NCBI GenBank assembly: GCA_016215705.1
Contig: JACRIR010000207.1
Span: 19,886-83,885 of the forward strand
Length of the DNA: 64,000 bases
Direction of reading: 5' to 3'
Origin: Candidatus Poribacteria bacterium
GTDB taxonomy: Bacteria; Abyssobacteria; SURF-5
The position numbers and the translations under genes were made by a program. Below are positions 40,437-59,083 of the stretch, one piece after another. Position 1 is the stretch's first letter. The number at the start of each line of letters is the position of its first letter. The notes beneath the pieces are model-generated. The model did no database searches and was not told the DNA's origin. It saw only the letters and a list, made by a program, of their open reading frames with translations.

Positions 40437-40591
40437 GTGCCTCGCTCAGTCAAAACTTAAGGCCTACCCACTTGACCCTTCTCAGTCTGTCTGTGACTCA
40501 CTCCCCAAAATCTATACTACTTATTGGGAGTAATGGAGTCAAGTGCATAGGCCCATATCCGTGGGTCAGAGAACTGTAACGCGGCTTATCT

Positions 40592-40996: not shown

Positions 40997-41033
40997 CCCG
41001 GCTTGCGTTCAAAGATTTCCAATGACGCCGTCC

Positions 41034-42941
41034 TCAATTCCTCTCGGGGGCCGCAGAGCTTGAAGCGGGCACTCCCTCCGCCATTTCCTCGCTGGCTACG
41101 GGCAGAATCACGGTGAAAGTGCTTCCTTCGTCCACCTTGCTGTCGACCAGTATCTCCCCGCCGTGGTCGCGGATGATTCCGTAACTTATCGAGAGTCCGA
41201 GTCCGGTTCCTTCTCCGGGCTCGCGGGTCGTGAAAAACGGATCAAATATCTTGTCCATTATTTCCGGCTTGATCCCCTCGCCGGTATCTTTTACGGAGGC
41301 GCGCACCAGACGGTCTTCCTTGTCTGCGCTTGTTCCGACAATCAGCTTGCCGCCTCTCGACATCGCCTTGCGCGCATTCACGATTATGTTGAGAAAAACC
41401 TGCTGTAGCTCGTTCGAGTCGCCCTTGACCGGTGGCAGATCCTCGGCAAAATGAGTCTCCACCTCGACGTTGCCCTTTTTGAGATTGCTTTGCATGAACC
41501 CGAGGGTATCTCTAACAATGCTATTGAGATCGAGCAACGCAAAATTCTTCTCGGAGACGCGGGCGAACGTCAGCAGGCTCCCTATGATGGATTTGCATCT
41601 CCGTATTTCGCGTTCCACGTACACGAGATTCTTCTCAAAACTTTCTGCCTCCTCATCGCTGAGGTGCTTCAGGCCGCGCGCGCGCACAGCGTCCGCCAAT
41701 ACCTGTAGGAAGGCATATATGCCGGCGAGCGGATTATTCAGCTCGTGGGCAAGGCCCGCAGCCAGTTCACCGATAGCGGCGAGCTTGGTGGACTGAATCA
41801 GTTTCGCCTGCGCGTCCGCCAATTGCCTTCCCCTCTCCGCCACACGCTCCTCGAGGGTCTGATTCCATCGCTCGAGCTCTTCCCTGTATTTCTTCAAGTC
41901 GGCAACCATCTTGTTAAAGGACTCGCTGAGTTCGCCCACCTCGTCACCGGTCCGGACCGGGACATACTGGTCAAGGTCGCCTTCCGCCACGGCTGCGCTT
42001 GCCCGCGAAAGTTCCCGAATTGGGCCCACTGTTCTCGACACGGTCAGAATGAAGATCGGCACAATGACTAAAAGCGTCAAGCCGACAACTATGACGGTTG
42101 TAGTAATAATGTTCCGCTTGGCCCGTGACAAGTCATCGACTGACTCGAAGATGGCAACCAGAGCTTCCTTTCTGAAATTGACGATCAAAGGAGAAAGTAT
42201 CATCCTCACGGAATGATCCCCGCAATCGAATTCCGCAAAATAAGGCACATCTTCATTCAGTATATGGCCCAGGAGTTTTGGAGTGAAAATCTTCCTGATC
42301 TCCTCATCGCATGCATCCGGGCCGGAGCTTGATTCGACGAGCTCTCCCCGGTAATACACCTGAACCCTGTAAGCCCCCGTCTTCTGACGCAAATCCTGCA
42401 AAAACTCCTTGTCAATCGGCCTCGACACGGTTATTACCGAGCGGCTGCCCGCGCGCCCCTCTATCGGGGCCACGGCGGCAAACTCAAGAGTTTTCTTTCC
42501 GTCCTCCAGGCGGGCGACAAGGTCGGTCGCCCTAATACCAAGCAGGCCAAGACGGTTCAGGCCGGGGTTGACCGAGGCAAGGTCGCTCCCGCCGCCTATG
42601 TTGGACAGAATCTTGTTTTCTCTTAGGAACTCCAGCAGGTAGATGATAACGAGACGGCTGTCTCTCGCTTCGGAAATGTGTCCGGCGAGACGCTCCGTAT
42701 CGGCCATGAATTGCGCATAGAACGCAAGGCTTTTCTCTATGTCCACAACGATTTCCTGCGTCAGACGGATGTCGCTTTTCAGCTTATCATTGACCCTTGC
42801 CTCAACGTTGGCCGAAACCAGGTCGATCATGGTATAGATGATGAGCGCCCCTATCAGCACCATCACGGCGACAAACGGCAAGAAAATCTTGTTCAGCACC
42901 GTGTTGCTGCTTGAAAAGAATTTTTTTGTGGAATCTCTCAT
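41034..42941 (-). CDS. Membrane sensor histidine kinase
   Basis: A 635-residue kinase: TM1 (FLPFVAVMVLIGALIIYTMI), a periplasmic sensor of about 230 residues, TM2 (TTTVIVVGLTLLVIVPIFIL), HAMP, a coiled linker, HisKA (GELAAGLAHELNNPLAG, phospho-His) and HATPase (N box FLNIIVNARKAM, G boxes DTGEGIKPEI and GEGTGLGLSIS). The start at ATG 42941 is preferred; the longer track ORF begins inside palindrome P7. It should phosphorylate the NtrC-type regulator two genes on. The periplasmic binding protein encoded just upstream may feed it a signal. Confidence 0.9.
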   Translation of the reverse strand: MRDSTKKFFSSSNTVLNKIFLPFVAVMVLIGALIIYTMIDLVSANVEARVNDKLKSDIRLTQEIVVDIEKSLAFYAQFMADTERLAGHISEARDSRLVIIYLLEFLRENKILSNIGGGSDLASVNPGLNRLGLLGIRATDLVARLEDGKKTLEFAAVAPIEGRAGSRSVITVSRPIDKEFLQDLRQKTGAYRVQVYYRGELVESSSGPDACDEEIRKIFTPKLLGHILNEDVPYFAEFDCGDHSVRMILSPLIVNFRKEALVAIFESVDDLSRAKRNIITTTVIVVGLTLLVIVPIFILTVSRTVGPIRELSRASAAVAEGDLDQYVPVRTGDEVGELSESFNKMVADLKKYREELERWNQTLEERVAERGRQLADAQAKLIQSTKLAAIGELAAGLAHELNNPLAGIYAFLQVLADAVRARGLKHLSDEEAESFEKNLVYVEREIRRCKSIIGSLLTFARVSEKNFALLDLNSIVRDTLGFMQSNLKKGNVEVETHFAEDLPPVKGDSNELQQVFLNIIVNARKAMSRGGKLIVGTSADKEDRLVRASVKDTGEGIKPEIMDKIFDPFFTTREPGEGTGLGLSISYGIIRDHGGEILVDSKVDEGSTFTVILPVASEEMAEGVPASSSAAPERN

Positions 42942-42973
42942 GCCGCCACTAGTCCTGCGAAATCGGAAACCCG

Positions 42974-43016
42974 GCTTATTCGGGGACACCATGCGGCATG
43001 GTGTCCCCGAATAAGC
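42974..43016. repeat. Dispersed palindrome P7 (43 bp, perfect)
   Basis: GCTTATTCGGGGACACCATGC and its complement around G. The flank CGCCGGTTTCCTAGGAG matches the repeat-family flank. Confidence 0.9.
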
Positions 43017-43138
43017 GCCGGTTTCCTAGGAGCTCTTGACCCCACTGCGCGGTGTTGATTGTAAAAGAAACGCACCAGCAGCCCCAATGTCATTCCCGCG
43101 AAAGCGAGAATGACGCAGGGTGTTGCGTCTCCGGAGTT

Positions 43139-43166
43139 TAACCATGAACCATGAACCATGAACCGA
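43139..43166 (+). repeat. Heptamer array H6 (4 units)
   Basis: TAACCAT, GAACCAT twice, GAACCGA, followed by GTTTCTTAGGAG. No plus-strand gene follows here, so the array is not tied to a ribosome-binding site in use. Confidence 0.8.
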
Positions 43167-43186
43167 GTTTCTTAGGAGAAACCGTG

Positions 43187-44932
43187 TTATCCCGGGTTTC
43201 TCTGGTCTTCCTCCCTGAGCAGGGTCTCAGGCTTCAGGTCGATTTTCTCCAGCATCTTGTAAAGCTCGCCGTAGTCAGAGTCATTCGTCTCGACAAACTT
43301 TGTCGCATTCCCTAACGCTGAAAGCGCCTCTCTGCCCTGAGGGTCTTGATCCATCGAGATCAGATAATGCTTTATCGCAGAGCGTATATTGAATTCAGAA
43401 GGCAGGTTCTTTGTTTCATCTTCACTGCGGGCCATTGTCTGATGGCACTCGAAACACGGAAGTTCAAGGTCCTTTCTCATCACAAAGGCATTCGATGGCG
43501 CCGGAGGAGACTGCGCCAGAATCTTGAGGTTCGACCCCATCAGATGATTCTCCCTTGCAATCATGTAGTAAATCAGGTCTTTTGCCGCTCCCACGTCCGC
43601 CTTGTTATGGAGCACCGCGAGAATGGCGTCCTCATGGGTCCCCGTAAAATAGATATCCGAGAAATATCTCCGATAGTCGGTGATCCCATTCTTCTTGAAA
43701 TAATAAAGCGGGAAGACGTACCCTGCTGTCGTCGTCTTGCCTCCCATCACGAGACGTTTGCCCTTCATTTGTTCGAGACCCTCGATACCGCTGTCGGCGC
43801 GTACGAATATGATTCCCCTGTAGGTGGAGACGTCGCCGTAACTGGGCCGGGCGACCACCTCGACGTGCTCACGCACGGTGGTATAGGCCAGACTGCCGAG
43901 AAACGCAGCGTTAATGTCTCCTCGCTCCAGGCTCTGGCAAGCTTCAATATACGTTGAAAAAAGCTTGAGCGTTACCGAGAATCTCTCGCCGAGCTTTTGC
44001 GACAAATAATTCGCCAGGGGCTCGTACCGCTGACTCTGAACCATCACATCTTGCTCCGGCACCAATCCGATTAGAATCTCGTATCGCTGCGGCACGTATC
44101 CGGAATTCTCTATGACCCTTGCGCCTTCCTCCGAAAAGATGAAGTTGACAAACCGCATCGTCGAAGGCTTCGGATGCGGGCCCAAGACCAGCCCGAATGG
44201 TCTCAGGAATTTGTACCGATGCTCCTTCAGATTCGACAGCGTCGGCGCGACACCATTGATCGAAATTATGTTGACAGGCGGGTTTTCGGTGACGATCTCG
44301 CCAAGCGACATGTAACCAATAGAATGAGTTATCAACTGCAGTGACTCACTTACCTGCCAGGGCCTTTCGACCGTGATTGCTTCCGGCGTGACTCGCAGAC
44401 TCTCACCCAGAAATGTCTTGCGGACCATAAGCTTCGCCGAGGTATGTTCAGGCCGGTCAACAACCGCAATCTTGGCGTTTGGTCCGCCGACTTGCGCCCA
44501 ATTAGCGATCTTACCCGCATAGATATCTCTGATCTGGTCAGAGTTCAAATTCGTGATTCCGACGTTCGTATTGGTGGCGAAAACTAGGCCGTCTACCGCC
44601 AGGTGCAAATAGCGAACAGGATTCTCCCTTTCGTGTGGCGCCATCTCACGCGAAATCGCGCCGATATCATAATGTTCCTCGGTAGTTCCCGCGATTCCAG
44701 CCTCCGAATGAGAGTCGGGCAGGAACACAATCTCCGTGTCTCTCTCCTTCTTTGAAAACTCATTTGCCAGTGTCTTGAGCAGGGGCATTACTGCCGCTGA
44801 ACCCGAAATAAACACGCGCTTTTCACCGGTTGCGCGCGGCTCGGGAGCGGGTTTCTTGCTCTTACACGTCAGCGCCGAAGGGAACGTGAGCGCAATTACA
44901 AGAAAGAGACAGATTAATGCCTTCTTCTTCAA
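43187..44932 (-). CDS. Two-domain periplasmic binding protein (PstS-like plus PhnD-like) with one heme c motif
   Basis: A 581-residue exported protein. The first half is PstS-like (RVFISGSAAVMPLLKTLANEF, YDIGAISREM, GVAPT..NL). The second is PhnD/TAXI-like (GLVPEQDVMVQSQRYEPLANYLSQKLGERF, INAAFLGSLAYT, KGKRLVMGGKTTTAGYVFPLYYF). CFECH near residue 485 is a single CxxCH. The start is TTG (44932) after GAAGGAAAAC; the longer ORF passes through palindrome P8. The hydrophobic leader ends in LTC, a weak lipobox. It precedes the kinase gene, so a ligand- or redox-sensing input to the two-component system is plausible (inference). Confidence 0.78.
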   Translation of the reverse strand: MKKKALICLFLVIALTFPSALTCKSKKPAPEPRATGEKRVFISGSAAVMPLLKTLANEFSKKERDTEIVFLPDSHSEAGIAGTTEEHYDIGAISREMAPHERENPVRYLHLAVDGLVFATNTNVGITNLNSDQIRDIYAGKIANWAQVGGPNAKIAVVDRPEHTSAKLMVRKTFLGESLRVTPEAITVERPWQVSESLQLITHSIGYMSLGEIVTENPPVNIISINGVAPTLSNLKEHRYKFLRPFGLVLGPHPKPSTMRFVNFIFSEEGARVIENSGYVPQRYEILIGLVPEQDVMVQSQRYEPLANYLSQKLGERFSVTLKLFSTYIEACQSLERGDINAAFLGSLAYTTVREHVEVVARPSYGDVSTYRGIIFVRADSGIEGLEQMKGKRLVMGGKTTTAGYVFPLYYFKKNGITDYRRYFSDIYFTGTHEDAILAVLHNKADVGAAKDLIYYMIARENHLMGSNLKILAQSPPAPSNAFVMRKDLELPCFECHQTMARSEDETKNLPSEFNIRSAIKHYLISMDQDPQGREALSALGNATKFVETNDSDYGELYKMLEKIDLKPETLLREEDQRNPG

Positions 44933-44974
44933 TATGTTTTCCTTCAATACAAAACTATACCCGAAATGAGTATA

Positions 44975-44989
44975 GCATAAATCCGGCCA
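44975..44989 (-). promoter_or_regulatory. Sigma-54-type promoter candidate S4
   Basis: On the minus strand: TGGCCGGATTTATGC, GG-N10-GC spacing, about 40 bases before the TTG start of the binding-protein gene. The -12 is ATGC, so it is weaker than S1-S3. Confidence 0.45.
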
Positions 44990-45018
44990 AATCGCGTAAA
45001 CACAATGGGATAGCTCAG

Positions 45019-45057
45019 AAAATTGGGGACACGATGCCGCATCATGTCCCCAATTTT
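45019..45057. repeat. Dispersed palindrome P8 with altered arm
   Basis: AAAATTGGGGACA..TGTCCCCAATTTT: C of the usual AATTCGGGG is missing in one arm and its partner is missing in the other, so pairing is kept. Confidence 0.88.
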
Positions 45058-45251
45058 TGCTCAAATGTGATTTCTTGAAGACGAGACTTATGATTAAGGT
45101 CTGAGAATCTGTCCCGCAATTCTGTATATGCGAATCTATTCGCACGTGCAATGTGAAAAGAGCCCGAAAATATTGTGCGAATATATTGGCGCCGACAGAA
45201 GCCTATGCCGGCTCGCCAATTGCGCGATTGATTCTCTGACGCCGGAGGCAG

Positions 45252-46784
45252 CTAGCGTATATGGCACTCGTAACAGAGTTCGCCGCCAATGACGCCCGCA
45301 CGCAGCAGGAATACAATATCGCCGCTGTGGGGCGTGTGACACGTTGTGCAGCCCACTTCACTCTCCCGCGTGAAGTTCAGCTTGTTATTTGGGGGAACCT
45401 CGAAAGTCGAGGACGCTTTCACACCCGTTGGATGCGGGAATTCTTTATGTCCTTTAGGGTGGCACAACGCGCACAAACGCGCGGATTCCATTGTCAGGTT
45501 GGCATCTCCCGCACCTGAGTGGGGCATATGACACACCGAACAGTTTCCTTCCCTATACGGATAGTGCACGAACCGATTGATCTGCTTCTGTCGTGACTCA
45601 TGGCAGCGAAAACATAACGCTTCTCCCTCTTCTTTGAGGAGAGCTTTGTCTTTCGCCATATGGGGCTTGTGGCAGGCAACACATCCTTGCTGCGCCGCCG
45701 TATGGGGATGATTCGTCTCGAGAAGTTTCGCTATAGGCTGATGACACTTGAGACAAGTGTCTTTCTCTGCATTCGCCAGGATGCCCTGGTTGTCCGAGCC
45801 ATGAGGGTTGTGACACTCCGTGCACTTCCCATCCGAGAATGGCGGGTGCAGGTGGTCGCCCTCCGCAGGCTTGATCGATTCGCCGTGGCATCGGGCGCAA
45901 AGGCTTGCCCCCGTCTCGATAAGCAGAGAGGGATTGGTTGTTGCGTGCGGCCCGTGGCAATTCAGGCAATTCTCACCGGCTGGAAGATGGGCGAACTTGG
46001 ACTTTAGGGAGGTCTCGATATCAGCATGGCATGGAGTGCAAAGCTGCGCCCCGACGGCCTCCAGCTTAATCTCGCCGGGGGTCTCCGATATTACGTGACA
46101 GCTATCACACATTCCCTCCGCAAACGGAGGATGAGCATTCTCGATAATAAGCTTACGGTTCGGCGAGAAGTGTCCCCGGTGACACGAGGCGCATTCCGAA
46201 TCCGCCTTGAGCAGGTTTATGTGCGTTTTGTTGAATGCCGCATCTGCAACGTCGTGACATTTGGAACAAAGATTCCGGGATTTATCAAGCAGAAGCGCCC
46301 GGTTGGGCGATATGTGAGGATTGTGACACGTCAGGCATTCTCCCTCCTCGAACGGAGCGTGCACCGAAAGAGGTCTCTTCTCGACGGGCATACTCTCGTG
46401 ACAAGTAAAGCAAAGCGCCGGAACTCGGTCCGCCAGCATTTTCGGATAATCGGACGCATGAGGATTGTGACACGTCAGGCAGTCCTCCTTAACCGGAGCA
46501 TGCACGATGTTTTCTCCTGTTTCAGCCGCGAAATCCCGGTGGCAGACCGTACAACGGGTGGTCCCCTCTTCCACGAAGCCGAACGTATCGGCGTTGTGAC
46601 AAGCATCGCATTGACCAGCCTCGAACGGATAGTGCACATACTTCTTCCGCAATGCCACTTTCATGTCGTCATGACAATCCAGGCAATTGGCTTTCGATGG
46701 GTCGCGGCCGCGATTGAAGCCGGTTGCGCCGAAAAATACAAACAGAAGAAAGAACGAAACAACAAGGTTTTTTCGCGATATCAA
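45252..46784 (-). CDS. 20-heme c-type cytochrome
   Basis: A 510-residue exported protein with 20 CxxCH motifs (CLDCH to CYECH). A signal segment (NLVVSFFLLFVFFGATGF) starts it. Most of the protein is a tandem two-heme repeat with CxxCHxPHxS followed by LCxxCH and a downstream HxPF/PV, the doubled-CXXCH pattern. The start is TTG after GGAGCGGGTAAAC. It follows the two CsgG-like lipoproteins in the same direction and may end that transcript. Expected role: long-range electron transfer across the periplasm or outside the cell. Confidence 0.9.
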   Translation of the reverse strand: MISRKNLVVSFFLLFVFFGATGFNRGRDPSKANCLDCHDDMKVALRKKYVHYPFEAGQCDACHNADTFGFVEEGTTRCTVCHRDFAAETGENIVHAPVKEDCLTCHNPHASDYPKMLADRVPALCFTCHESMPVEKRPLSVHAPFEEGECLTCHNPHISPNRALLLDKSRNLCSKCHDVADAAFNKTHINLLKADSECASCHRGHFSPNRKLIIENAHPPFAEGMCDSCHVISETPGEIKLEAVGAQLCTPCHADIETSLKSKFAHLPAGENCLNCHGPHATTNPSLLIETGASLCARCHGESIKPAEGDHLHPPFSDGKCTECHNPHGSDNQGILANAEKDTCLKCHQPIAKLLETNHPHTAAQQGCVACHKPHMAKDKALLKEEGEALCFRCHESRQKQINRFVHYPYREGNCSVCHMPHSGAGDANLTMESARLCALCHPKGHKEFPHPTGVKASSTFEVPPNNKLNFTRESEVGCTTCHTPHSGDIVFLLRAGVIGGELCYECHIR

Positions 46785-46842: not shown

Positions 46843-47631
46843 CTATCGAGTCACTCCCTTAATATCTTCCCACTCTTTCAATACGGCGCCGTGCGCTCTC
46901 TCTTTCTCTGCCTGAATGTCTCCGCCTTCAGGCTTCACGGGCGCGGTCGGAAGCACGGGCGCCTCGGATGGCTTCGCCGCCTCCAGGCCGGGCTTGATGG
47001 CCGCTTTGGTCGGTTTAGCCTTGCCGGCGTACAGTTCCTTCTTTTCCGGATACATTGCCACGCCAAGCGCCTCGATCAGGTCATCGGCCACAATCTCAGA
47101 GAGCGTTACCACCGAGTTCACTCTCCCTATTCCGAACACCGTTTCCTTGAAATCTCCTTGCAGCGAGTGAGTTGCCGCCCAAACGATCTCGCCCGTGTTT
47201 GCATCCACGAGCCGCAGCGCCATCGAGACAGTGGGCAACTGCCCCAGGTCCGTCGTGATGTAAGTGTATTCATTCACGCTCCCGAATATCATTCCATCCG
47301 CAGCAAGCTGGCGGCTGGCCTCGCGGATGGTGTCGAGATCGAGCTCGCCTGCTACCCGTATGCGGGACCGGAGGATGAATTGCTCGACCTCCCCCGGCTC
47401 GACCAGATTCACAAGATTCGAGTTGTAGAGCTTTGAGACCAATGAAGCCGTCGCCCGGTCACCGGCATCGGGCGTCCCGCTGAGGTTTTCCAGCGGAAAA
47501 ACCGCGATGCGATTGAGACGGGCGGCCGCGGGAGCGGGCCGCACCAGAAATTGCCTCGATTGGGAACAACCCGATAACATAAGGGCGAACACAATAATCC
47601 GGCAGACAATCGCGCGTTTGGTTTTCATCAT
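46843..47631 (-). CDS. CsgG/LpoB-like lipoprotein (1)
   Basis: A 262-residue lipoprotein (lipobox LMLSGC near residue 21). RIAVFPLENLSGTPDAGD, VEPGEVEQF, LAADGMIFGSVNEY and ALRLVDANTGEIVWAATH follow the pattern of CsgG-type outer-membrane lipoproteins. The C-terminal part is Lys/Pro rich. It overlaps the previous gene by four bases (ATGA). Such proteins build secretion pores or assemble envelope machinery; here they may help assemble the surface cytochrome or barrel protein (inference). Confidence 0.78.
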   Translation of the reverse strand: MMKTKRAIVCRIIVFALMLSGCSQSRQFLVRPAPAAARLNRIAVFPLENLSGTPDAGDRATASLVSKLYNSNLVNLVEPGEVEQFILRSRIRVAGELDLDTIREASRQLAADGMIFGSVNEYTYITTDLGQLPTVSMALRLVDANTGEIVWAATHSLQGDFKETVFGIGRVNSVVTLSEIVADDLIEALGVAMYPEKKELYAGKAKPTKAAIKPGLEAAKPSEAPVLPTAPVKPEGGDIQAEKERAHGAVLKEWEDIKGVTR

Positions 47632-48338
47632 CTCACCATGGTTATCAGTTTGTGACAGACCCGTTGTGTGAGCACGGAGAAAAGCTGCTCCTGGCCGACG
47701 TCAACGACCGGAACCTTGGGACTTCCCTCATCGGAAGCGGTCCCCATGAAGATTATAGTGCCTGTGTTCACGTCCACCCATCGCACGTTGACCGACACGA
47801 CCGGATACGTTTCGTTCCTCACTCGCTCTTGACCATATTCGAGGACGGTTCCAAATATGAGGGTGTCGGCCTTCAGCGAGTTGCCGATCTTCCTGACATC
47901 GTCTTGGCTCAGCTTCCCTCCCGTTATATTGCTCTCACGGAGAACACGGGATACCTCTCCGGGCTCAACGACGTCGACATCTATGTCCATCAACAGCGCG
48001 GTAATGTAAATTGTCGTCACCTTCTCGGCCGCAAACTGTGTTCCGGTATAGTTGTCAAAAGGGATCACTGCCACACGCGTGATTGCGCTCAAATCCGCAT
48101 CCGGATGCCTGAAAGATTGTGCACGTCTGCTCGGAAAAACAGAAGGCGCGTCCCTCGAGCCGCTTTTTGCCGCGAAGTTTAAACCCTGCTCTCGGGCCGT
48201 TCGTGAAGGTTCTTCTTCTGAGCTTTCCTTTGCGCTATGTTCGTTGGACCGTTTCTGTGTGCCCGTCGCACAGCCCGCGACGAGAGCCAACACGACCAGG
48301 CAATAGAGAACACGTGTTTGGAAAATATGCGATTTCAC
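47628..48338 (-). CDS. CsgG/LpoB-like lipoprotein (2)
   Basis: A 236-residue lipoprotein (lipobox ALVAGC near residue 22) paralogous to the one it overlaps: RVAVIPFDNYTGTQFAAEKVT, VDVVEPGEVSRVLRESNI, LKADTLIFGTVLEYGQ and NVRWVDVNTGTIIF. The start is GTG after AGGGAGG. A sigma-54-type promoter (S3) lies about 60 bases upstream, making it the first gene of the lipoprotein/20-heme transcript. Confidence 0.78.
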   Translation of the reverse strand: MKSHIFQTRVLYCLVVLALVAGCATGTQKRSNEHSAKESSEEEPSRTAREQGLNFAAKSGSRDAPSVFPSRRAQSFRHPDADLSAITRVAVIPFDNYTGTQFAAEKVTTIYITALLMDIDVDVVEPGEVSRVLRESNITGGKLSQDDVRKIGNSLKADTLIFGTVLEYGQERVRNETYPVVSVNVRWVDVNTGTIIFMGTASDEGSPKVPVVDVGQEQLFSVLTQRVCHKLITMVR

Positions 48339-48498: not shown

Positions 48499-50952
48499 TC
48501 AAAATATCTTCGTTAGCTCCACAAAAAGAAACTTGCTGTCGGTTTCCTCCCCCTCCTCGATGTCGTAGTTGACGGACATCAAAGTATCCCAGTAGAAAGG
48601 GAATTTAGCCTGAGATCTGAAGCTCAGGACTTTCTCTTCATTGGTCCCACCCCGGTAGCCCAAAAAGAACGTCAACTTATCGTTCATTCTCCACACAAGG
48701 TCTAAGAAATAGCTCAGGTTGTCAGTCGTCTCGCCGGCCGATTTGCTTTTTATGAAGTCCGCGTTCGTAAAGAGATCGAGGCGATGACTTATTGCCCACG
48801 CAAAATCCACACTTGCGAGCACAGTCTCCGAACTGGCATCGGGTTGACCGGCAAACGCGCTGTCACTCGTATTATACTCAGCCGAAGTGTTTACTGTCAT
48901 GCTCGCTCTCGGTTTAAGCCTCAGATTGCCGCGAACACGCCGGCTGTTGGTCTCTCCGTCAGACTCGAAGTCCTGTGTCTGACTAGTGCTCAATTGCAGG
49001 TTAAAATCAACGCCGCGGTATATTCTCAGGTCGGTCGCCGCGGCGAAGGTGTCCGTTTCCAGAATCTTTTCGCTGTCCTGCTCGTTCTGCTGGTTCGAAT
49101 AGGTGAAGTTCACGGTGGCCCGGGTGGTGGGAAGCAGATTGAGGCTCAGTGTCGTAAACGTACTGTCCTCGTCCGGTCCCACATTCGAGTCCAGGTTGTC
49201 GAGAGTGTAAGAGGCCGACATATTCACTTTGGGCACGGGCTGAAGACTTGCCGTGTACGTTTGAGTGAGTTCGTCACGGTCGGTTTCAACATCCCCTGTC
49301 TCTGTGCTGAAAAGCTGCAATCTGTAGAGAGAAGAAAGCGATACCCAGCGATAAGGCTGGAACCGGAGTTGGGCGTTGACGTCATGGTTCAGAGTTGAGA
49401 CAAGGCCCTGTCCGGTGTCCTTGTCCTCTTCATCCGACTTGAAAACTTCGTAGTCTATCGACCCGAAGATTCCCTGGAATAACTCACGGGCATAGAGCAC
49501 GCTGAAAGAATCCGACACAAGACGCGTGCTCCGGCTCCGTTCTTCAGCATTTACGGCCCCAACCTCAAACAAAAAAACACCGTTGTTGGTCAAGACTTGC
49601 AGCCTGCTGTTGCCGGTGTCGGCCACGACAACATCTCCGCCAGGCGTGACGGCGATTCCTTGCGGAGCATTGAACTGTCCCGGCCCTGCCCCCAGTTCTC
49701 CGAATTCGTCAAGTAACAAACCCGTTGTCGTGAAAACCTGAACCCTGCTGTTGCCCCTGTCCGTCACATACACCCGGTTCGCGAAATCCACCGCCACATC
49801 AGTTGGATTCTGGAACTGACCGGGCGCCGACCCGAATGTGCCCCATTCGGTCACAAACGCGCCCGTCGTAGTGAATACCTGGATGCGATGATCGAGCGTG
49901 TCCGCCACGAACACCAGGGTCCCATTCGATGTTATACCCGAAGGCGACGAAAAATTGCCCGGACCGGCTCCGGTTGTGCCGAAAGAGAACAAGAACACAC
50001 CATCGGCCGTGAATTTCTGAACGCGGTCGTTCCCCTGGTCGGTCACATACACGCCGGTGCTGTCCACGGCGACTCCATACGGGGTATCAAATTCGCCTGG
50101 CCCGATTCCGAATGTGCCCCATTCTGATATGAATCTCCCCGTCAGGTCAAACCGCTGAACGCGGTTGTTTCCGGAATCGACAACGTAGATGAAGCTCGGG
50201 CTTACGTCTATTCCCAGAGGGTTTATGAACAATCCCTCGCCGGAGCCAAAGCCGCCAAATTCACCCAGAAACACGCCTGACGGACTGAACCTGAATACCA
50301 GGTTTGCAGCGGAGTCGGTCACGTAGATGATTCCCGCCTGGTCAACTGCAGCACCCGAGACTCCTTGCAGGTTTATCGTGGCGAGTGTCGTCAGCTCATT
50401 GTCGAACTCATTCTCCCGATGCGAATATCTCAACGAGAGCGGACCCTTCTGGTAAGTCGACCGCAAGCCCCAGTCGGTTTCCACAAAGTCGGTCTGCGGC
50501 TGAGGCAGGTCATCCTTGGATTCCGTTCTCGAGAAATCCAGCGTCAGGTCCGGATATTCTGGATCAGGCTTGAAGGTGAACGTAGTGAAGAGAGTGTCGG
50601 TCGTCTGGGTGAATCCGCCCGGCTCATCGTTTATCTGCTCGAACTCGCGGTATTCAAGAAGCCACCGGTATTCCGGCCCGGACAGGTTGAAACCGAATAA
50701 GGGCCTGATCTCCTCGGCGTCGGGATTCTTCTGTTCCTGCTGTGAGTACTGGAAGTAAAGGTCGAGCAGATCCACATTGCTTAAAGCCGTATTCCAGTCA
50801 AGCCGGAGCCTTTGTTCCGAGGCCGAGAAGGTCTCCCCATCCTGTTCCTGTTTACGGTAGTTAACAGTTGCCGACCCGGTCAATTCGCCAGCTCCCGCCG
50901 CCATTGGCCACATCAACAACACGGCAATGAGGAAAAGCCGACTCTTTTTCAT
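48499..50952 (-). CDS. Outer-membrane beta-barrel protein with inserted NHL beta-propeller
   Basis: An 817-residue exported protein. After the signal peptide (KKSRLFLIAVLLMWPMAAGA) come amphipathic strands (LTGSATVNYR, LDLYFQYSQQ), then about six NHL repeats at roughly residues 195-465 (each like GTFGIGPGEFDTPYGVAVD...VYVTDQGNDRVQKF). More than a dozen further barrel-type strands follow, ending in FLFVELTKIF with a C-terminal Phe. A propeller in a barrel loop is unusual. Its place among large multiheme cytochromes suggests the porin of a trans-outer-membrane electron conduit, with the propeller outside or inside as a docking platform (inference). Start: ATG 50952 at the signal peptide. Confidence 0.8.
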   Translation of the reverse strand: MKKSRLFLIAVLLMWPMAAGAGELTGSATVNYRKQEQDGETFSASEQRLRLDWNTALSNVDLLDLYFQYSQQEQKNPDAEEIRPLFGFNLSGPEYRWLLEYREFEQINDEPGGFTQTTDTLFTTFTFKPDPEYPDLTLDFSRTESKDDLPQPQTDFVETDWGLRSTYQKGPLSLRYSHRENEFDNELTTLATINLQGVSGAAVDQAGIIYVTDSAANLVFRFSPSGVFLGEFGGFGSGEGLFINPLGIDVSPSFIYVVDSGNNRVQRFDLTGRFISEWGTFGIGPGEFDTPYGVAVDSTGVYVTDQGNDRVQKFTADGVFLFSFGTTGAGPGNFSSPSGITSNGTLVFVADTLDHRIQVFTTTGAFVTEWGTFGSAPGQFQNPTDVAVDFANRVYVTDRGNSRVQVFTTTGLLLDEFGELGAGPGQFNAPQGIAVTPGGDVVVADTGNSRLQVLTNNGVFLFEVGAVNAEERSRSTRLVSDSFSVLYARELFQGIFGSIDYEVFKSDEEDKDTGQGLVSTLNHDVNAQLRFQPYRWVSLSSLYRLQLFSTETGDVETDRDELTQTYTASLQPVPKVNMSASYTLDNLDSNVGPDEDSTFTTLSLNLLPTTRATVNFTYSNQQNEQDSEKILETDTFAAATDLRIYRGVDFNLQLSTSQTQDFESDGETNSRRVRGNLRLKPRASMTVNTSAEYNTSDSAFAGQPDASSETVLASVDFAWAISHRLDLFTNADFIKSKSAGETTDNLSYFLDLVWRMNDKLTFFLGYRGGTNEEKVLSFRSQAKFPFYWDTLMSVNYDIEEGEETDSKFLFVELTKIF

Positions 50953-51077: not shown

Positions 51078-52553
51078 CTAATGACAAACGACCGTACAGT
51101 CGCCTTCGTCCCAGTTGCCGCTAGGACCCCAGTTCGGGACGTCGCTCTGTTTCAAGAGCACTGTGCCGCCGAGCAATCGAGCCGGATCGCTAGAGGTTAC
51201 TAGCAGCGCCCGTCGATTGATGCCATGCGGGACCTTGCTGTGACAATCCATGCAGCCGATAGGTCTGTTCGCAACCGGATTGTCCTCGTTCGCGTGCAAT
51301 CCGTGGAGATTCTCTCCAAAATTATTCCTCGAAAAGCCCGTGTTACGATTGTCGTTCCTTTGGGCATAAGTGGTAAAGTCATGACACAGGAAGCACAGGT
51401 GACTGCTTGTGTTCTGAGTGCGCTGGCCCGAAGTCACGTCCCATCGAGCTTTCACGAGGAACGGCAACTGGGAGCCATGCGGCCCTTTTGGGTCATTCGC
51501 ATTGCTGCTGCCGTGACAGTCTGTGCAGACCATCTGAAAGTCCCATCGCCAGCCGTTCACGAAAACGCCGATGCCGTTCAAATTCGGAGCCTGGATAACA
51601 TTGTGCGAACTGACATTGTTCGGATTGAACTCGATGGACGGATCCGTTTGCTGGCCGCCCGAAGGCGCAAACGGCGGAAATGAACCATAGGCCCAGTACG
51701 AATGACACTTGAAACAAAGCTGATACTCGAACTGGATGTCGAATATCTGGCCACGCGGCTGAAACGTCGGAAACGTGTCAGGCAGGCTCCCGTAATTGGC
51801 CTCGATGAAGCTCGAGCCTCTCAAAACCCCGCCGGCGCGGTTCGAGCCCTGAGTATGCAAGTCCCTTGTGTGGACGTGAGAGTTGTGGCAGTCAGCGCAC
51901 TCGTTGTGCCGATTCTGACCTGAAAAACTATCCGGGATTATCTCCTCGGATGCGTGGTGGCGTCCCTCCAACTGACTGTTCGTCATCTGGTGCGTATACT
52001 GGTAATTCATCTGAGTGTCGATCTTCTCCTGCGCCGAGCCGGCAACCTTGTGGCAGCCCAGACAAAGCTCCTCCTCACGCTTGAATAGAAGCGTTGGCAT
52101 CAATCCTTTAGAATCGCCCCACCCGTGGGGCGTGTGGCAGTTGACACATTTCCCCTTGGCGTCGGGTTCCATGCGCGCCGGCGGCTCCGGCCCCGGCCAT
52201 CGCATGAGAGAGTCGTCTTCGTGAATTGACTGCTCGTACACCGACGAGCCCCTATAGATGGCGTTCGAGCTCTGACCGAAATGGCATGTGAAACAAAGCT
52301 GATTGTTGTCCGCTGTCCAGAGAGCAAAGTCGGTCGTTGTGCCCCCTGCGCCATGCATCGAATGACAATGGCCGCAATCACCCCGTGGAAGCGCGGAATC
52401 CCGCCTCACGCCACTCGTCGGGTCCCCGTGTCGCGTGGATGAGTACAATCCGCCGCGCGCCCATACGACGTAAGAGCTGCCCAGTATGAGGATGACAACC
52501 GCAATTAGTGCAGCGCTTGCTTTGGCGATTCTTCTCAAGACTCTATTTTCCAT
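51078..52553 (-). CDS. Multiheme c-type cytochrome (nine CxxCH plus one CxxxCH)
   Basis: A 491-residue exported protein with an N-terminal hydrophobic segment (ALIAVVILILGSSYVVWA) and nine CxxCH motifs (CGHCH to CMDCH). Its last residues are DCTVVCH, a C-x3-CH site at the very C-terminus. Spacer regions are long and do not show the doubled-CXXCH repeat of the 16-, 20- and 26-heme proteins. It lies directly upstream of the barrel/NHL gene, so it is the natural candidate to fill or cap that barrel. Confidence 0.88.
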   Translation of the reverse strand: MENRVLRRIAKASAALIAVVILILGSSYVVWARGGLYSSTRHGDPTSGVRRDSALPRGDCGHCHSMHGAGGTTTDFALWTADNNQLCFTCHFGQSSNAIYRGSSVYEQSIHEDDSLMRWPGPEPPARMEPDAKGKCVNCHTPHGWGDSKGLMPTLLFKREEELCLGCHKVAGSAQEKIDTQMNYQYTHQMTNSQLEGRHHASEEIIPDSFSGQNRHNECADCHNSHVHTRDLHTQGSNRAGGVLRGSSFIEANYGSLPDTFPTFQPRGQIFDIQFEYQLCFKCHSYWAYGSFPPFAPSGGQQTDPSIEFNPNNVSSHNVIQAPNLNGIGVFVNGWRWDFQMVCTDCHGSSNANDPKGPHGSQLPFLVKARWDVTSGQRTQNTSSHLCFLCHDFTTYAQRNDNRNTGFSRNNFGENLHGLHANEDNPVANRPIGCMDCHSKVPHGINRRALLVTSSDPARLLGGTVLLKQSDVPNWGPSGNWDEGDCTVVCH

Positions 52554-52801: not shown

Positions 52802-53812
52802 TCACTGGTTGTGACATTGTTGGCATGGGGCCATTGCGTCAGCGATATTCCCGGGAGACTTGAATGGCCACGTCGCTCCGGCCTCGTAAGGGCTCCCGTG
52901 CGCAAAATGACAAGTTTCACAAAAGACTTCGTTGGTCGGAGAGACTAGTCGGGCCGCCTCATAGTTCGGCGCTGACGGCGTCTGGAAACGCACCCTCGGA
53001 ATACCCGGAGCGCCGTCTCCCGTCGCCGGACCAAAGCCCGAGCCGGTCCCGGCAAGCCAATGCTGCTCATCCACGTGGAGGCCGGCGCCGCTCGCAATGC
53101 TTACGTCTGCCGGATGCGCCTGAAAATGCGCGGGCAGCGTGCCCAAAGGGTTCGGAAGCGCCCGGTCATGGCACTCTGCGCACCACTTCGACATATCCGA
53201 GCGATAACTAATGTTCGACAGCCTGTATGCCTGGCCCGGATTCCTCCCGTCAGGACGAACCTGCTCGAATACGGTATCCATCGGCAAAGGAGGATTGCTA
53301 AGGACTACAGGGGTCCCCGCTCCGCTTCCCGGGCGGCTCTTGAGATTCCTGTAGTTCTCGTTCCCATGTGGATCGTGGCAACTTGTGCAACTAAGTATAC
53401 TGGCTGCCATGCCGCTTAACGGAACCTGAGCCGGCAAAAGGCCGAGGTCATGCCCCTTCGCGCTCTGAATCCCGCCGCTGTATTCAAAGAATCCTCCGGC
53501 CGAAAATTCATCGGGCGAATAGGAAGTGGATACCGGCGTCAAGACATCCGGCGCATCCACGTCCGAACCATCGTGACAGTTCAGGCACAGCTTGGTAGAC
53601 GATGACGCAAGAAGAAGTTTTGCAAATGGTCCGCCCGGCTCGGCCCCCACCGGAGGCCTGCCGTGCTGGCTGAAGTGGGTCGTGTGACAGTCCGAGCAAA
53701 CTTGCTGCTCAACGTGGTATTCTCCGCCTGCAACCGGGTCGGAATAGGCCGTCGTTAGGAAAATAGATAAAAGCAGCAGCGATAATCTTCGCAACACAAG
53801 CAAGGCGATCAC
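52802..53812 (-). CDS. Hexaheme c-type cytochrome (second type)
   Basis: A 336-residue exported protein with six CxxCH motifs (CSDCH, CLNCH, CTSCH, CAECH, CETCH, CQQCH). It is a distant relative of the hexahemes at 14629 and 55176: CTSCHDPHGNENYR, YRSDMSKWCAECHD and CETCHFAHGSPYEAG occupy matching places. The start is GTG after AGGAAAAGC. Expected role: periplasmic or surface electron carrier within the same conduit. Confidence 0.88.
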   Translation of the reverse strand: MIALLVLRRLSLLLLSIFLTTAYSDPVAGGEYHVEQQVCSDCHTTHFSQHGRPPVGAEPGGPFAKLLLASSSTKLCLNCHDGSDVDAPDVLTPVSTSYSPDEFSAGGFFEYSGGIQSAKGHDLGLLPAQVPLSGMAASILSCTSCHDPHGNENYRNLKSRPGSGAGTPVVLSNPPLPMDTVFEQVRPDGRNPGQAYRLSNISYRSDMSKWCAECHDRALPNPLGTLPAHFQAHPADVSIASGAGLHVDEQHWLAGTGSGFGPATGDGAPGIPRVRFQTPSAPNYEAARLVSPTNEVFCETCHFAHGSPYEAGATWPFKSPGNIADAMAPCQQCHNQ

Positions 53813-53982: not shown

Positions 53983-54903
53983 CTAAGGCTTCCTTGATAT
54001 CTCGAAAGCCTGAAGCCTGGATGCCCCTTTCTCAAGAACATACAGAATCCCTTTTCCGAATGCGATATCTATTGGATAGAAAAGCTCTCCGTCACCCATA
54101 CCCGTAATACCCCATCGAGAGAGGAATTCGCCCCTCGGATCGAAGACCTTGATCTCGTGTCTGAAACTGTCGGCTATCCAGAGATTTCCTTCGGGACCGA
54201 TCGCCACTCCCGTCGGAAAAGAAAACTGATCTTCATTTGAACCGTGTTGTCCGAAGCTCCTCAAGTGGTGGCCGTTGGCATCGAAAACATGCACAGCCAA
54301 TCCTTGAGAGCTTAGTATGTATATATTGCCGACGCCGTCGACCTCGACGTCCTGAACCTTCCACTGAGGCTCGCGTGATCCGGGCGTCTGCTGTATCTGT
54401 CGCGTCATGTAGTCCGAACCAGAAATAATCAGGACCCTTGGTTCGGCCCTGTCTGCCGCATAAATATTGCCTTTGCCGTCAACGATGATCCTTCCCGGCA
54501 GCGGAGAAGTCTCATCGTGTGTTTGAGGGACTATGGGTGGAAGCGGGCTCCCGTTGAAACTAAGCCGCTTGATCTGGCGCGTTCCTATCTCCGTGAGATA
54601 TATTCCCTCATCTTTTCCAAACGCAGCGCCAATGGGACTTTGGATGCCTGCCACCCGCCCAACGCTCTTCACAAGAACCCCGTGCGCGCTGAGAATACAA
54701 AGACGATCATTCCCTGTGTCGGCAATCAGGATATCTCCGGTCTCTCTCGACACAGCCAACCCCTGCGGATCGCGCAAGTTGGCGCCGTCGCTGAGGCGGG
54801 AGACGGAAAAAAGAAAATGCAAATTATCGAACGATTGGACGCTGGTGCTGCAGAGCAGAAGCGAGAAAGTTATGATGAATGCCGTGGCAGATCGCCTTTT
54901 CAT
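53983..54903 (-). CDS. NHL-repeat beta-propeller protein, exported (1)
   Basis: A 306-residue protein with a signal peptide (ATAFIITFSLLLCSTSVQS) and about six NHL blades (LRDPQGLAVSRETGDILIADTGNDRLCIL; FPTGVAIGPEGNLWIADSFRHEIKVFD). No transmembrane domain follows. NHL propellers bind proteins or ligands. It is one of two secreted propellers in this locus, in addition to the barrel insertion, each next to a hexaheme gene. The ATG at 54903 is chosen at the signal peptide. A weak GG-N10-GC site is upstream at 54979-54993. Confidence 0.82.
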   Translation of the reverse strand: MKRRSATAFIITFSLLLCSTSVQSFDNLHFLFSVSRLSDGANLRDPQGLAVSRETGDILIADTGNDRLCILSAHGVLVKSVGRVAGIQSPIGAAFGKDEGIYLTEIGTRQIKRLSFNGSPLPPIVPQTHDETSPLPGRIIVDGKGNIYAADRAEPRVLIISGSDYMTRQIQQTPGSREPQWKVQDVEVDGVGNIYILSSQGLAVHVFDANGHHLRSFGQHGSNEDQFSFPTGVAIGPEGNLWIADSFRHEIKVFDPRGEFLSRWGITGMGDGELFYPIDIAFGKGILYVLEKGASRLQAFEISRKP

Positions 54904-55022
54904 GGCTATCCCGTCATTTCCCGTGAAGCTCATCAAGACCGCTTCCCTTTATCAAAACACATATTATCAATATTGCGGGCAAAACGCAATCCTTAATATG
55001 CACGCCGTTCCGGCGCTGACCG

Positions 55023-55175: not shown

Positions 55176-56234
55176 TCAATCTTGTATGTGGCACTTGTTG
55201 CACAAGCTTCTCTGAGCAGTCAGATCGAGCGGATTGCCGCCGCTCCACTCCGCGAGATAAGGTTCACCTGCGGGATGGCTTGCAGACAATTCCGTGGCTC
55301 TGAAGTCCCAACGGCCCGCATCCGGATACGGAGACGCATGAGCACGGTGACAGGTCAAGCACATGACTTTGCTCGCTGCTGTCGGACCAGTCGTGCTGGT
55401 CGTCGTGTTCGCTGCGTCCTCGAACGGAACCAGGCCCAGGTATGACGTGGACACGTCGCCTGTCAGTACGCCCGTCGTGACATACGCGTTATAATTGCCC
55501 GCGTGGTCGGAGCCGAGGCCCTGATCCGTCGGGTGCACGATATTGGAAGTCATGCCGGAATGGAAATTAGCATGACAGTTCGCGCACCAGTCGCTCATGC
55601 CGCTGATGTAAGCGGTATGTTGCGCATGCTTTTCCGCGCCCGCATCCGCGATCTTGGTTCTGCGCGAATTGCCCGTTGCTGTTGGAGCAGGTTCCGCGAA
55701 GGCGTAATCGCCCGGATAGTTCGCGGCGGTCTCGCTCTCAATGCCGTACAGCAAGCGGAAATTGACGTTTCCGTGCGGATCGTGACAGGAGTTGCAGCCG
55801 AGCTGATCCGAGATGTACGTTCCACCGGGCGCAGTCGTCAGTACTGTATCCGCCGACAAACCGTTACCGGGAGCATTGAGGTTATGCCCATGTTCGCGAC
55901 CGAATATGGTTACACTCGTTCCACCTCCGCCCACATACGACACGTCCGTTTTCGCCCAATAGAAGTCGCCGCCAGGGCCGAGTGACAAACCGTCGGTCGT
56001 CAACTGGCCATAACTGGCATGGCAGGCCAGGCAGGTATCGCTGGGCGAGCCCTTCTTCAACAGGTAAGCGTTGCCTGTTGGATGATCCGCGTCCACAAGC
56101 ACGCCACCCTGGCTGTTATGCATGGTGTGGCATCCGCCGCAGTACGCGACTCCGGCATCATGGAATGCCATGACCGCTGAGGAATAGCCCGCCACAAAGA
56201 GAACCGCCATCATGACTACGAACAGTCTTTTCAT
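55176..56234 (-). CDS. Hexaheme c-type cytochrome, paralogue of the 14.6-kb gene
   Basis: A 352-residue exported protein (signal RLFVVMMAVLFVAGYSSAVMA) with six CxxCH motifs (CGGCH, CLACH, CNSCH, CANCH, CLTCH, CNKCH), collinear with the protein at 14629. The ATG at 56234 follows a very strong GGGGGGAGGTGA; the track start at 56300 is an extension overlapping the NHL gene. The transcript ends at the terminator 55116-55154. It is probably a shuttle in the electron-transfer conduit, expressed at high level judging by its ribosome-binding site. Confidence 0.92.
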   Translation of the reverse strand: MKRLFVVMMAVLFVAGYSSAVMAFHDAGVAYCGGCHTMHNSQGGVLVDADHPTGNAYLLKKGSPSDTCLACHASYGQLTTDGLSLGPGGDFYWAKTDVSYVGGGGTSVTIFGREHGHNLNAPGNGLSADTVLTTAPGGTYISDQLGCNSCHDPHGNVNFRLLYGIESETAANYPGDYAFAEPAPTATGNSRRTKIADAGAEKHAQHTAYISGMSDWCANCHANFHSGMTSNIVHPTDQGLGSDHAGNYNAYVTTGVLTGDVSTSYLGLVPFEDAANTTTSTTGPTAASKVMCLTCHRAHASPYPDAGRWDFRATELSASHPAGEPYLAEWSGGNPLDLTAQRSLCNKCHIQD

Positions 56235-56296
56235 TATTCTTTCACCTCCCCCCGTTTTAGAATGACTAGTTTCACATGAATACTTTTCATAGGCGC

Positions 56297-57337
56297 TCAT
56301 CGGTTTTCCTCCTTTAGTTTAAGTACCTGCACCTTGTTGCCGAACATCTGGGAAACATAAATCCGTCCATACCTGTCAATTTCCAAACTGTTCGGATAGT
56401 AGAACCATCCCTTGCTCGGGCCCATTCCGCCGAACTCGGTCAGATAATTACCATCCCGGTCATACACCGCGATGCAATGCCTCTGCTTATCAAGCACAAG
56501 GTAACGCCCGCCCTTGTCCACAACCACGTCCACCGGGAACGCCAGCCTCCCGGGGCCGCCACCTTGTATCCCGAAGTTCATCAGATGCTTTCCCTCATTG
56601 TTGAATACGTAAACCGTACCGAGGGTCGCAACCGGAAGATACACTCTGTTATTTTTGTCCACGCTGAGACTTCCGAAAACAGCCTCCTCACGATCCTTAT
56701 CATTCATCGTCGGCATGATCTTGAATCGATACTGCCCATCAGAATCGAACGAAACGATGCAGCCGTGCTTCTGGTCGGATATATAGAGATTGTCCTGTGA
56801 ATCCAGGGCAATATCCGTCGGCTCGCAAGTGTCGCCTTCCGGCAGACCCTTCAGCTCGAGCCGGGAAAGGCGCTTGCCGCGATAATCGAAAACATCTATG
56901 TTTCTGCCGCCAAACCCGCCCTGAAGCACATAGATGTCACCGCTCTTGGTTACGGCCACGTCCAGCGGAACTCCAAGTTCCCCATTCTCGCCGAATTGGA
57001 AAAGCTCCAAGCCTTCCTTCCCGAATATCCGGATGCAATGATTACCCGTGTCCGCTACGTAAATCTCATTTCGCTCCGGATCAGAGAATATCTCACCCTG
57101 GCTCTGAAAATGTGAATCTTCGGTAAGACCTTCAAGGTCATAGAGATATTCGGCCTTTATGTCCAGAACGGCGTAGGCCGATGAAGTCAATGCCATTAAG
57201 ATGAAAAGAGCGGTTATCGCTGCCAGAGCCATGACAACCATCCCGTAGGAACCAGGGATTGCTTCGGCTGCGCAGGCAAAACCAGCATTCCCGCTTCTCG
57301 CCGTTCGCCAGTCCATCTTTTTTGCCGTTTTCTTCAT
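56297..57337 (-). CDS. NHL-repeat beta-propeller protein, exported (2)
   Basis: A 346-residue protein with a late hydrophobic signal (VVMALAAITALFILMALTSSAYA, about residues 35-57) and about six NHL blades (SDPERNEIYVADTGNHCIRIFG; FPVDVVVDKGGRYLVLDKQRHCIAVYD; YPNSLEIDRYGRIYVSQMFGNKVQVL). The start at 57337 follows GCAAGG and fits the S2 promoter; the ORF-track start at 57376 would leave almost no leader. It is in one transcript with the downstream hexaheme gene. A docking or scaffold role beside the cytochrome is inferred. Confidence 0.82.
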   Translation of the reverse strand: MKKTAKKMDWRTARSGNAGFACAAEAIPGSYGMVVMALAAITALFILMALTSSAYAVLDIKAEYLYDLEGLTEDSHFQSQGEIFSDPERNEIYVADTGNHCIRIFGKEGLELFQFGENGELGVPLDVAVTKSGDIYVLQGGFGGRNIDVFDYRGKRLSRLELKGLPEGDTCEPTDIALDSQDNLYISDQKHGCIVSFDSDGQYRFKIMPTMNDKDREEAVFGSLSVDKNNRVYLPVATLGTVYVFNNEGKHLMNFGIQGGGPGRLAFPVDVVVDKGGRYLVLDKQRHCIAVYDRDGNYLTEFGGMGPSKGWFYYPNSLEIDRYGRIYVSQMFGNKVQVLKLKEENR

Positions 57338-57392
57338 TGAGAACCTTGCTCCAACTGAATGCTCTTCCAAACTCATACGCTAATTCCATAAG

Positions 57393-57407
57393 GCAAGGCG
57401 CATGCCA
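57393..57407 (-). promoter_or_regulatory. Sigma-54-type promoter S2
   Basis: On the minus strand: TGGCATGCGCCTTGC, GG-N10-GC with TTGC at -12, about 45 bases of leader to the ATG at 57337. Confidence 0.7.
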
Positions 57408-57699: not shown

Positions 57700-57769
57700 A
57701 AACCCTAAACCCTAAACCCTAAACCGTGAACCGTGAACTGTGAACCATAAACCATGAACCCTAAACCCC
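57700..57769 (+). repeat. Heptamer array H7 (10 units, telomere-like)
   Basis: Ten perfectly phased 7-base units. The first three are AAACCCT, identical to the plant-type telomere repeat, followed by AAACCGT, GAACCGT, GAACTGT, GAACCAT, AAACCAT, GAACCCT and AAACCCC. It lies just past the 3' end of the 16-heme gene. Confidence 0.9.
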
Positions 57770-57773
57770 TCAT

Positions 57774-59030
57774 TCAAACCTTCTTGTGGCACTGAATGCA
57801 AAGCTCTCGATCACGGTTGTAATAGGTGAGGAATTCCTCATCTGAGGAGTGCGGATCGTGGCAGCTCACACAATCGAGCGTCGAGCCGGTGCGCGGGTCG
57901 AGAACCCCTTTGCCATAGGGATGGCTTGTCTTATGTTCCTCGGCGTGGCATCGCTTGCACAACTCCAGAACCTCAGCCTTCAGCAGTTGGGTCGTGCTTC
58001 CCGCGTGTGGCTCGTGACATAGTTCGCATTGCCCTTTTGCGACCGGATCATGGACCACCTTAAGGCTGAGTTTCTGCTCAAATTCCTTGTGACAATCAGC
58101 GCAAAGGGTGGTCTTGTTCTGCTTCATAAGGAATCTCTCATCCGAGGCATGAGGCGAATGACAAGCGGTGCATTTACCTTGCGTGACAGGGGCGTGGACT
58201 ATGGGCCTTGAGAACTCTTTCCATGCGTCCGCATGACAGGTCCGGCAAAGAGTGTCCTCAGCCTTCACAAGTTTGAAGGGCGTCGGGTTATCCGGCGGCA
58301 AGTGGCAGTACGAGCACAGCTTCTTGGCCATCGGGACGTGTGCGACCTTGCGTGTGAGGTTTCGTTGGGATGACGCATGAGGATCATGGCAATCGGCGCA
58401 TCCTTTGTTCTGGACGGGGTAATTCGCGTGCGCCGTCTTGAAGTTGGGTGTGGCGCCGTTGTGGCACTGGGCGCACAATTCGGAAGGCCCTTTCTTCAGG
58501 AGGTCAGTCCTCGAAGAGCTGTGAACGGAATGGCATTTCAGACATTCGGCGCGGCCGACCGGCTGATGCACGTACTGCTGCGCAAACTTCTCTTTCTCTT
58601 TCTGATGGCAGCCATAACACAGGTCTTTCTGTGGAACACTCAGAAGCTTCGGTTGCAACGAAGCATGCGGCTGGTGACAACTCAAGCACAGTCCATCTTG
58701 CACCGGCTTATGCTCATGCCCGGAGTTGAACTCCGGCGAGTTCTTCTCGTGGCAATCAAAGCAATACTGGTTTCGAGGGCTCAGAACGAGCTTTTGATTG
58801 TTCGAGGCGTGTGGATTGTGGCAGCCGACACAGTTCCCAAGCGCAACCGGCGCGTGAACGTTCTTGCCCTCCCATGTCTGCTTGAGGTCCTTGTGGCAGG
58901 TGTAACAAAGCTTCTCGTAACTCTTCTCTTTTGCTACTTCTTTGCCCGCCCCAAGGACCGGAGCCCCCGCAGAAAATATCCCAACAACGGCAATTGCGGC
59001 AAGAATAAGATATGTAGTTCTCTTTTTCAT
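57774..59030 (-). CDS. 16-heme c-type cytochrome
   Basis: A 418-residue exported protein (signal TYLILAAIAVVGIFSAGAPVLGA) with 16 CxxCH motifs from CYTCH to CIQCH. It is built of the same two-heme repeat as the 20- and 26-heme proteins (NCVGCHNPHASNN...YCFDCHEKNSPEFNSGHEHKPV). The start at 59030 begins the signal peptide; the track start overlaps the upstream gene. It ends 54 bases after the 26-heme gene in the same direction and should be co-transcribed with it from S1. Confidence 0.92.
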   Translation of the reverse strand: MKKRTTYLILAAIAVVGIFSAGAPVLGAGKEVAKEKSYEKLCYTCHKDLKQTWEGKNVHAPVALGNCVGCHNPHASNNQKLVLSPRNQYCFDCHEKNSPEFNSGHEHKPVQDGLCLSCHQPHASLQPKLLSVPQKDLCYGCHQKEKEKFAQQYVHQPVGRAECLKCHSVHSSSRTDLLKKGPSELCAQCHNGATPNFKTAHANYPVQNKGCADCHDPHASSQRNLTRKVAHVPMAKKLCSYCHLPPDNPTPFKLVKAEDTLCRTCHADAWKEFSRPIVHAPVTQGKCTACHSPHASDERFLMKQNKTTLCADCHKEFEQKLSLKVVHDPVAKGQCELCHEPHAGSTTQLLKAEVLELCKRCHAEEHKTSHPYGKGVLDPRTGSTLDCVSCHDPHSSDEEFLTYYNRDRELCIQCHKKV

Positions 59031-59083
59031 CCCAATTTTAGATTTCAATGTTTCTTTGTTTTGACCTTTGACCTTCGACTCCG

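Follow-up and report, generated by a model that had tools for sequence, protein, structure and literature searches.

A six-bladed NHL propeller inserted in a predicted outer-membrane porin within a multiheme cytochrome cluster of a relative of Candidatus Abyssobacteria

Here, we found that a six-bladed NHL propeller is inserted in a protein of the outer-membrane-barrel type, that this fusion is conserved across three genera, and that its gene lies in an electron-transfer cluster among multiheme cytochrome genes. The gene occupies positions 48499-50952 of the window, the 64,000-nucleotide stretch of DNA analysed here, whose source genome is a relative of Candidatus Abyssobacteria SURF_17; like all features below unless stated otherwise, it lies on the reverse strand. 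It is an exact ATG-to-stop open reading frame of 817 amino acids without internal stops. Its product starts with a signal peptide (residues 1-21, 50890..50952), recognised by eye as the hydrophobic stretch MKKSRLFLIAVLLMWPMAAGAG, which is followed by an N-terminal barrel part with predicted strands 1-9 (residues 22-185, 50398..50889), the propeller in what is predicted to be extracellular loop 5 (residues 192-466, 49555..50379) and a C-terminal barrel part with predicted strands 10-28 (residues 469-817, 48502..49548). The barrel parts were delimited by a topology model and by alignment to propeller-less porins, the C-terminal one also by its meander of hairpins. All three Abyssobacteria-family genomes compared (the window genome and two others, each from another genus) carry the fused gene without a stop. 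As the orthologues in the two other genera, at 61 and 71% identity, keep the fused frame intact, the fusion is no assembly accident. The initial annotation had read from the letters about six NHL blades between barrel-type strands, a terminal Phe and an adjoining decaheme gene; the translation indeed ends in Phe, and the other readings were likewise upheld.

For the blades, three methods agree. Pfam finds NHL repeats with E = 4.3e-34, AlphaFold (one orthologue as partner) folds residues ~193-466 into six contiguous blades of four strands each (24 in all; pLDDT mostly about 70-95 over residues 198-465), and Foldseek returns as the closest fold the NHL domain of Drosophila Thin (6d69, 1.2 A over 263 columns). 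Residues ~192-466 thus form a six-bladed NHL propeller, a fold shared with Thin, TRIM71, Brat and PknD, although in none of these is the propeller inserted in a membrane barrel. The blades are 26-58% identical to one another (mean 41%) and therefore no recent DNA repeat. Recent descent from one of the neighbouring NHL genes is not supported, as the propeller is only 28-35% identical to the other NHL proteins of the window. We rejected an Opitutia match (L005) as a relative; it is a different NHL protein that was matched through the repeats.

Is the propeller an original part of the porin, or was it inserted? A search with the decaheme cytochrome led to related clusters in other lineages, among them a GC-rich phylum (G195 and relatives) with the decaheme gene in 12 genomes. 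In most of the neighbourhoods read there, the order starts with NHL, hexaheme and 9- or 10-heme genes, continues with the porin gene and CsgG/LpoB-like lipoprotein genes, and closes with a very large cytochrome; contig edges truncate some of these neighbourhoods. Cytochromes carrying 42 CXXCH motifs occur in the syntenic clusters L043, L069, L071, L072, L074, L076 and L079. The porins of this phylum are mostly 545-590 amino acids long, and no propeller was seen in them by a motif check, nor by Pfam in the two porins scanned. When the profile of the Abyssobacteria barrels was compared with that of these porins, E was 5.7e-4 with the propeller left in and 2.1e-6 after its removal, the latter over 505 columns end to end; the real score of 56 compares with 25 and 35 for pair- and block-shuffled controls and at most 25 for unrelated porins. 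Comparisons with profiles of single members were often too weak, and only pooled profiles were decisive. The pool comprised the porins of the G195 phylum together with those of G030, G266 and the OmcS-type clusters, after removal of inserts, for which the F5/8C boundaries were set by eye. Against this pool, the propeller-free remainder (533 amino acids) matched with E = 8.6e-19 and a score of 147 over 500 columns, compared with 45 for the best of 40 shuffles. The alignment crosses the propeller junction unbroken (RYSHRENEFDN in the window protein, RYTFQNRIFDN in G030), and the propeller begins after the ...RY....FDN end of strand 9. Because the remainder aligns end to end with porins that have no propeller, the propeller is a real insertion. 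The porin family to which the remainder belongs occurs in multiheme clusters of several lineages and has no match among the Pfam and NCBIfam porin models tried. The proposal of the initial annotation that the fusion would be a new kind of conduit is therefore overstated: the family occurs widely in such clusters in propeller-free form, and the fused gene is a variant of it. Within the window's own genome, the C-terminal barrel part has no second match.

The gene context is rich in hemes. Directly upstream of the porin gene, at a distance of 125 bases, lies a decaheme cytochrome gene (51078..52553) with nine CXXCH motifs and a conserved C-terminal CX3CH, the candidate plug of the porin; such a gene also precedes the porin gene in most of the G195-phylum clusters read. 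The CX3CH is found at the extreme C-terminus (51078-51098), and its spacing is kept near the C-terminus in distant relatives. There follow a hexaheme cytochrome with weak similarity to OmcS (52802..53812; 6EF8, E = 6.9e-6), a separate NHL propeller protein identified by Pfam (53983..54936), an OmcS-like hexaheme cytochrome and putative filament former (55176..56300; 6EF8, E = 3.5e-44) and a second separate NHL propeller protein (56297..57376), whose gene overlaps the OmcS-like one by 4 bases. The OmcS-like product is of OmcS type by sequence similarity and by its six CXXCH motifs; the match starts at residue 1 of the 6EF8 chain, with the FH...CxxCHTMH start aligned to the OmcS chain start. That separate NHL genes stand beside hexaheme genes had been noticed from the letters, and the pairing recurs in other lineages. 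Further upstream, an NCBIfam scan and heme-motif counts identify a 16-heme (57774..59102) and a 26-heme cytochrome (59084..61057). The small protein encoded upstream of the latter (61059-61676) has no NCBIfam match; in G001, the equivalent position holds a possible counterpart, a short gene for a lipoprotein-like product (L101:4510-4941).

Downstream, the porin gene is followed by genes for a CsgG/GNA1162-like lipoprotein (47628..48338; Pfam CsgG, 7.8e-8; lipobox VAGC), an LpoB/CsgG-like lipoprotein (46843..47631; Pfam LpoB, 7.4e-8; lipobox LSGC) and a 20-heme cytochrome (45252..46784; NCBIfam scan and heme-motif count). Likely regulators, assigned by eye and in similar order in SURF_17, occupy 39066..45151: a gene for a binding-protein-like product with a single CXXCH (43187-45151), a histidine kinase (41034-42992) and an NtrC-type response regulator (39066-40436). 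This set may give the cluster a heme-based redox sensor, and other nanowire clusters contain kinases with a single CXXCH as well (L044, L046, L048, L107). By gene adjacency only, the decaheme and then the hexaheme genes beside the porin gene provide candidate cytochromes to fill the barrel and to face outwards, as a porin-cytochrome conduit would need.

On balance, we think it probable that the fused protein acts as the porin of a porin-cytochrome conduit in the outer membrane, and that its loop-5 propeller lies outside the cell and positions extracellular cytochromes. The predicted 28-strand barrel would probably sheathe a multiheme cytochrome, with the decaheme protein encoded next door as the strongest candidate. 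At the outer mouth, the propeller would serve as a protein-binding platform. Its partner would most likely be the OmcS-like filament subunit or else the other hexaheme protein of the cluster, so that electrons could move between the plug and the filament. In other lineages, propeller proteins whose own genes adjoin that of the porin or of the cytochrome may do the same job. Plug identity, docking partner and the direction of electron flow are what we infer. The plug may differ between lineages, since the OmcS-type clusters of G043, G176 and G157 have no decaheme gene directly before the porin gene.

These OmcS-type clusters, in G043, G176, G338 and G157, were found by a search with the OmcS-like protein, and their porins measure 698-745 amino acids. 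Pfam detects an F5/8C-like domain in the porin of G338 just above the cut-off (3.4e-6) and in that of G043 below it (2.8e-4), and the aligned region of the G157 and G176 porins resembles this insert; the conduit porins with such a domain belong to clusters L104, L106, L107 and L108. By our strand count the insert follows strand 11, i.e. it occupies loop 6. The G320 porin, which is split over two contigs and was used in pieces only, seemingly has such a domain too, as judged by eye. The porin gene of G320, G043 and G176 is immediately preceded by a separate propeller gene, of the YNCE-like kind. That porin and propeller are separate neighbours in some lineages and fused in another suggests, by analogy, that the two act together; the comparison is not one of orthologues because the fused propeller is of the NHL type and the separate ones are of the YNCE type. 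In G001, G026, G338, G157, G043, G176 and G208, the OmcS-like gene likewise has an NHL or similar propeller gene directly ahead of it. We speculate, tentatively and with more doubt than belief, that loops 5 and 6 are general docking sites, where lineages independently acquired either a propeller or a discoidin-like domain, or else retain the propeller as a protein of its own, so as to seat an OmcS-like nanowire on the conduit. If so, the Abyssobacteria fusion would mark the missing filament socket.

The domain in the next loop of the sister porins could also be read differently. The F5/8C (discoidin-like) fold often serves carbohydrate binding, and the propeller might by the same token be an adhesive or ligand-binding surface module, which would recognise a mineral, a glycan or a partner cell and hold the conduit to its electron donor or acceptor, leaving the cell's own cytochromes untouched. 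Consistent with this, NHL proteins near such cytochromes have been suggested, in a study of Geoalkalibacter, to bind mineral crystals (PMC12016550). We consider this unlikely, however, as the propeller genes directly before OmcS-like or hexaheme genes in many lineages point to cytochromes as partners.

Which side of the membrane the propeller faces was addressed with a segment model of the barrel, whose parameters were set by hand and not trained. Counted from either end, the strand parity places the propeller outside. In addition, the hairpins with tight turns that a low-confidence AlphaFold model of the C-terminal part shows make the strand after the propeller a down-strand, so that the insert faces out. 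The predicted outer loops are long and acidic (mean 13.7 residues, -23 charges per 100 residues), the inner turns short and neutral (mean 2.8 residues). The propeller is thus predicted to be extracellular, in loop 5 of the barrel, and would therefore meet extracellular cytochromes rather than a periplasmic plug. Parity, turn pattern and loop charge all speak against a propeller that faces the periplasm or acts in assembly, receiving a periplasmic cytochrome or aiding the export and polymerisation of OmcS through a porin that is partly an exporter. We regard such a role as distinctly improbable, even though the barrels of the exporters FimD and LptD are of similar size and Skennerton et al. described the propeller of related clusters as having a signal peptide, no membrane helix and an adjoining prolyl isomerase (PMC5539420).

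Does the remainder form a membrane barrel at all? Without the propeller, the topology model assigns 28 strands to the window protein, 9 before and 19 after the insertion point, which confirms barrel-type strands on both sides of the blades; shuffled sequences reach only 6-10 in all. The orthologues yield 28 and 26 strands and the G030 porin 28; four porins of the G195 phylum yield 18-24, so that the model is not uniformly good. Structure prediction of the protein alone gave a divided answer to the barrel proposed in the initial annotation: the propeller was modelled with confidence, but a closed barrel was not obtained, the flanks remaining unfolded at a pLDDT of ~25 in the full-length AlphaFold model (one orthologue as partner). 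The C-terminal 348 residues alone gave a meander of long hairpins with tight turns at a confidence of 38.7; these low-confidence hairpins (91-113, 129-153, 162-192, 199-229, 243-268, 276-300 and 307-330, plus the last strand) are those of the topology model. Foldseek with this model was uninformative, and neither single-sequence nor profile searches of PDB sequences matched a solved porin. Taken by themselves, the missing confident barrel model and the lack of a match to known porin models would fit a multi-domain beta protein that is secreted or resides in the periplasm. This we hold to be very improbable in view of the 28 amphipathic strands with long acidic loops alternating with tight turns, the C-terminal Phe, and a homologous family of conserved size that adjoins decaheme genes across lineages. 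We thus predict, from the topology model, a large 28-strand outer-membrane barrel.

By sequence, the propeller is conserved at least as well as the barrel across the three genera: between the fused protein (P0001) and SURF_17 it is 76% identical, compared with 75 and 68% for the barrel parts, and between P0001 and G001 68%, compared with 65 and 56%. This is not expected from relaxed constraint, and a passive insert that does nothing itself and is tolerated in a surface loop is hence the least credible of the explanations, although the propeller occurs in one family only and relatives without the insertion exist.

How does the fused porin relate to known conduits? MtrB of the Shewanella MtrAB(C) conduit is a 26-strand antiparallel barrel with acidic outer loops (PMC7198977). 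A large antiparallel barrel, a decaheme cytochrome and acidic outer loops, the hallmarks of MtrB/PioB, have predicted or encoded counterparts for the fused porin; the propeller has none in MtrB. No match to the NCBIfam family or, by single-sequence or profile search, to the solved MtrB in the PDB was found. By the tests made, the fused porin stands outside the MtrB/PioB family, although it probably works like one of its members. The OetABI and OmcX/OmcS cassette of ANME-partner bacteria unites porin, cytochrome and OmcS-like genes as the window does, but the main text of that paper mentions no NHL protein or propeller (PMC10553843), and the window cluster has several. Skennerton et al. (2017) described a four-gene core of a six-bladed propeller, a 16-heme and a 26-heme cytochrome and a prolyl isomerase, with extra propeller genes around it and no known conduit porin found there (PMC5539420). 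The 26-heme, 16-heme and propeller genes of this core also stand side by side in the window (56297-61057). No prolyl isomerase was recognised among the reading frames around the window cluster, by eye and, for the scanned genes, with NCBIfam; one is present in the clusters of G320, G266 and G157. The propellers of that core are separate genes, whereas the window additionally has one fused into the porin. Likewise, the Uet cluster has porin (UetC) and NHL (UetHI) genes among multiheme genes, but as separate genes (PMC10734462). Genes for NHL or other propeller proteins that stand separately next to such cytochrome genes have therefore already been published (PMC5539420, PMC10734462, PMC9769857, PMC12016550). 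For a propeller inside a conduit porin, we found no report in the open-access literature searched; as subscription papers lie mostly outside that scope, this absence is not proof. According to Murali et al. (PMC10553843), the transfer of electrons from cytochrome filaments into the cell is not well understood. The fused porin, with a presumed protein-binding domain at its surface and an OmcS homologue encoded nearby, is a testable candidate for the filament-to-cell joint.

Apart from the cluster, the window holds a solitary OmcS-like hexaheme gene on the forward strand (14614-15687; 6EF8, E = 9.6e-42). The same genome has a second cluster (L047, G000:C215), OmcE-like as judged by eye, with the gene order NHL, 4-heme, an 806-residue porin without propeller, 5-heme, NHL and 11-heme. 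Finally, the palindrome GGACACSATGCNGCATSGTGTCC has 11 perfect or near-perfect copies in the window, where 0 are expected, at positions 1654, 3543, 8288, 14370, 17109, 26797, 42984, 45027, 48453, 51027 and 55035. The genome has 358 copies, compared with 0 and 1 in the two relatives. It is a lineage-specific REP- or MITE-like repeat, and two of its copies flank the fused gene.
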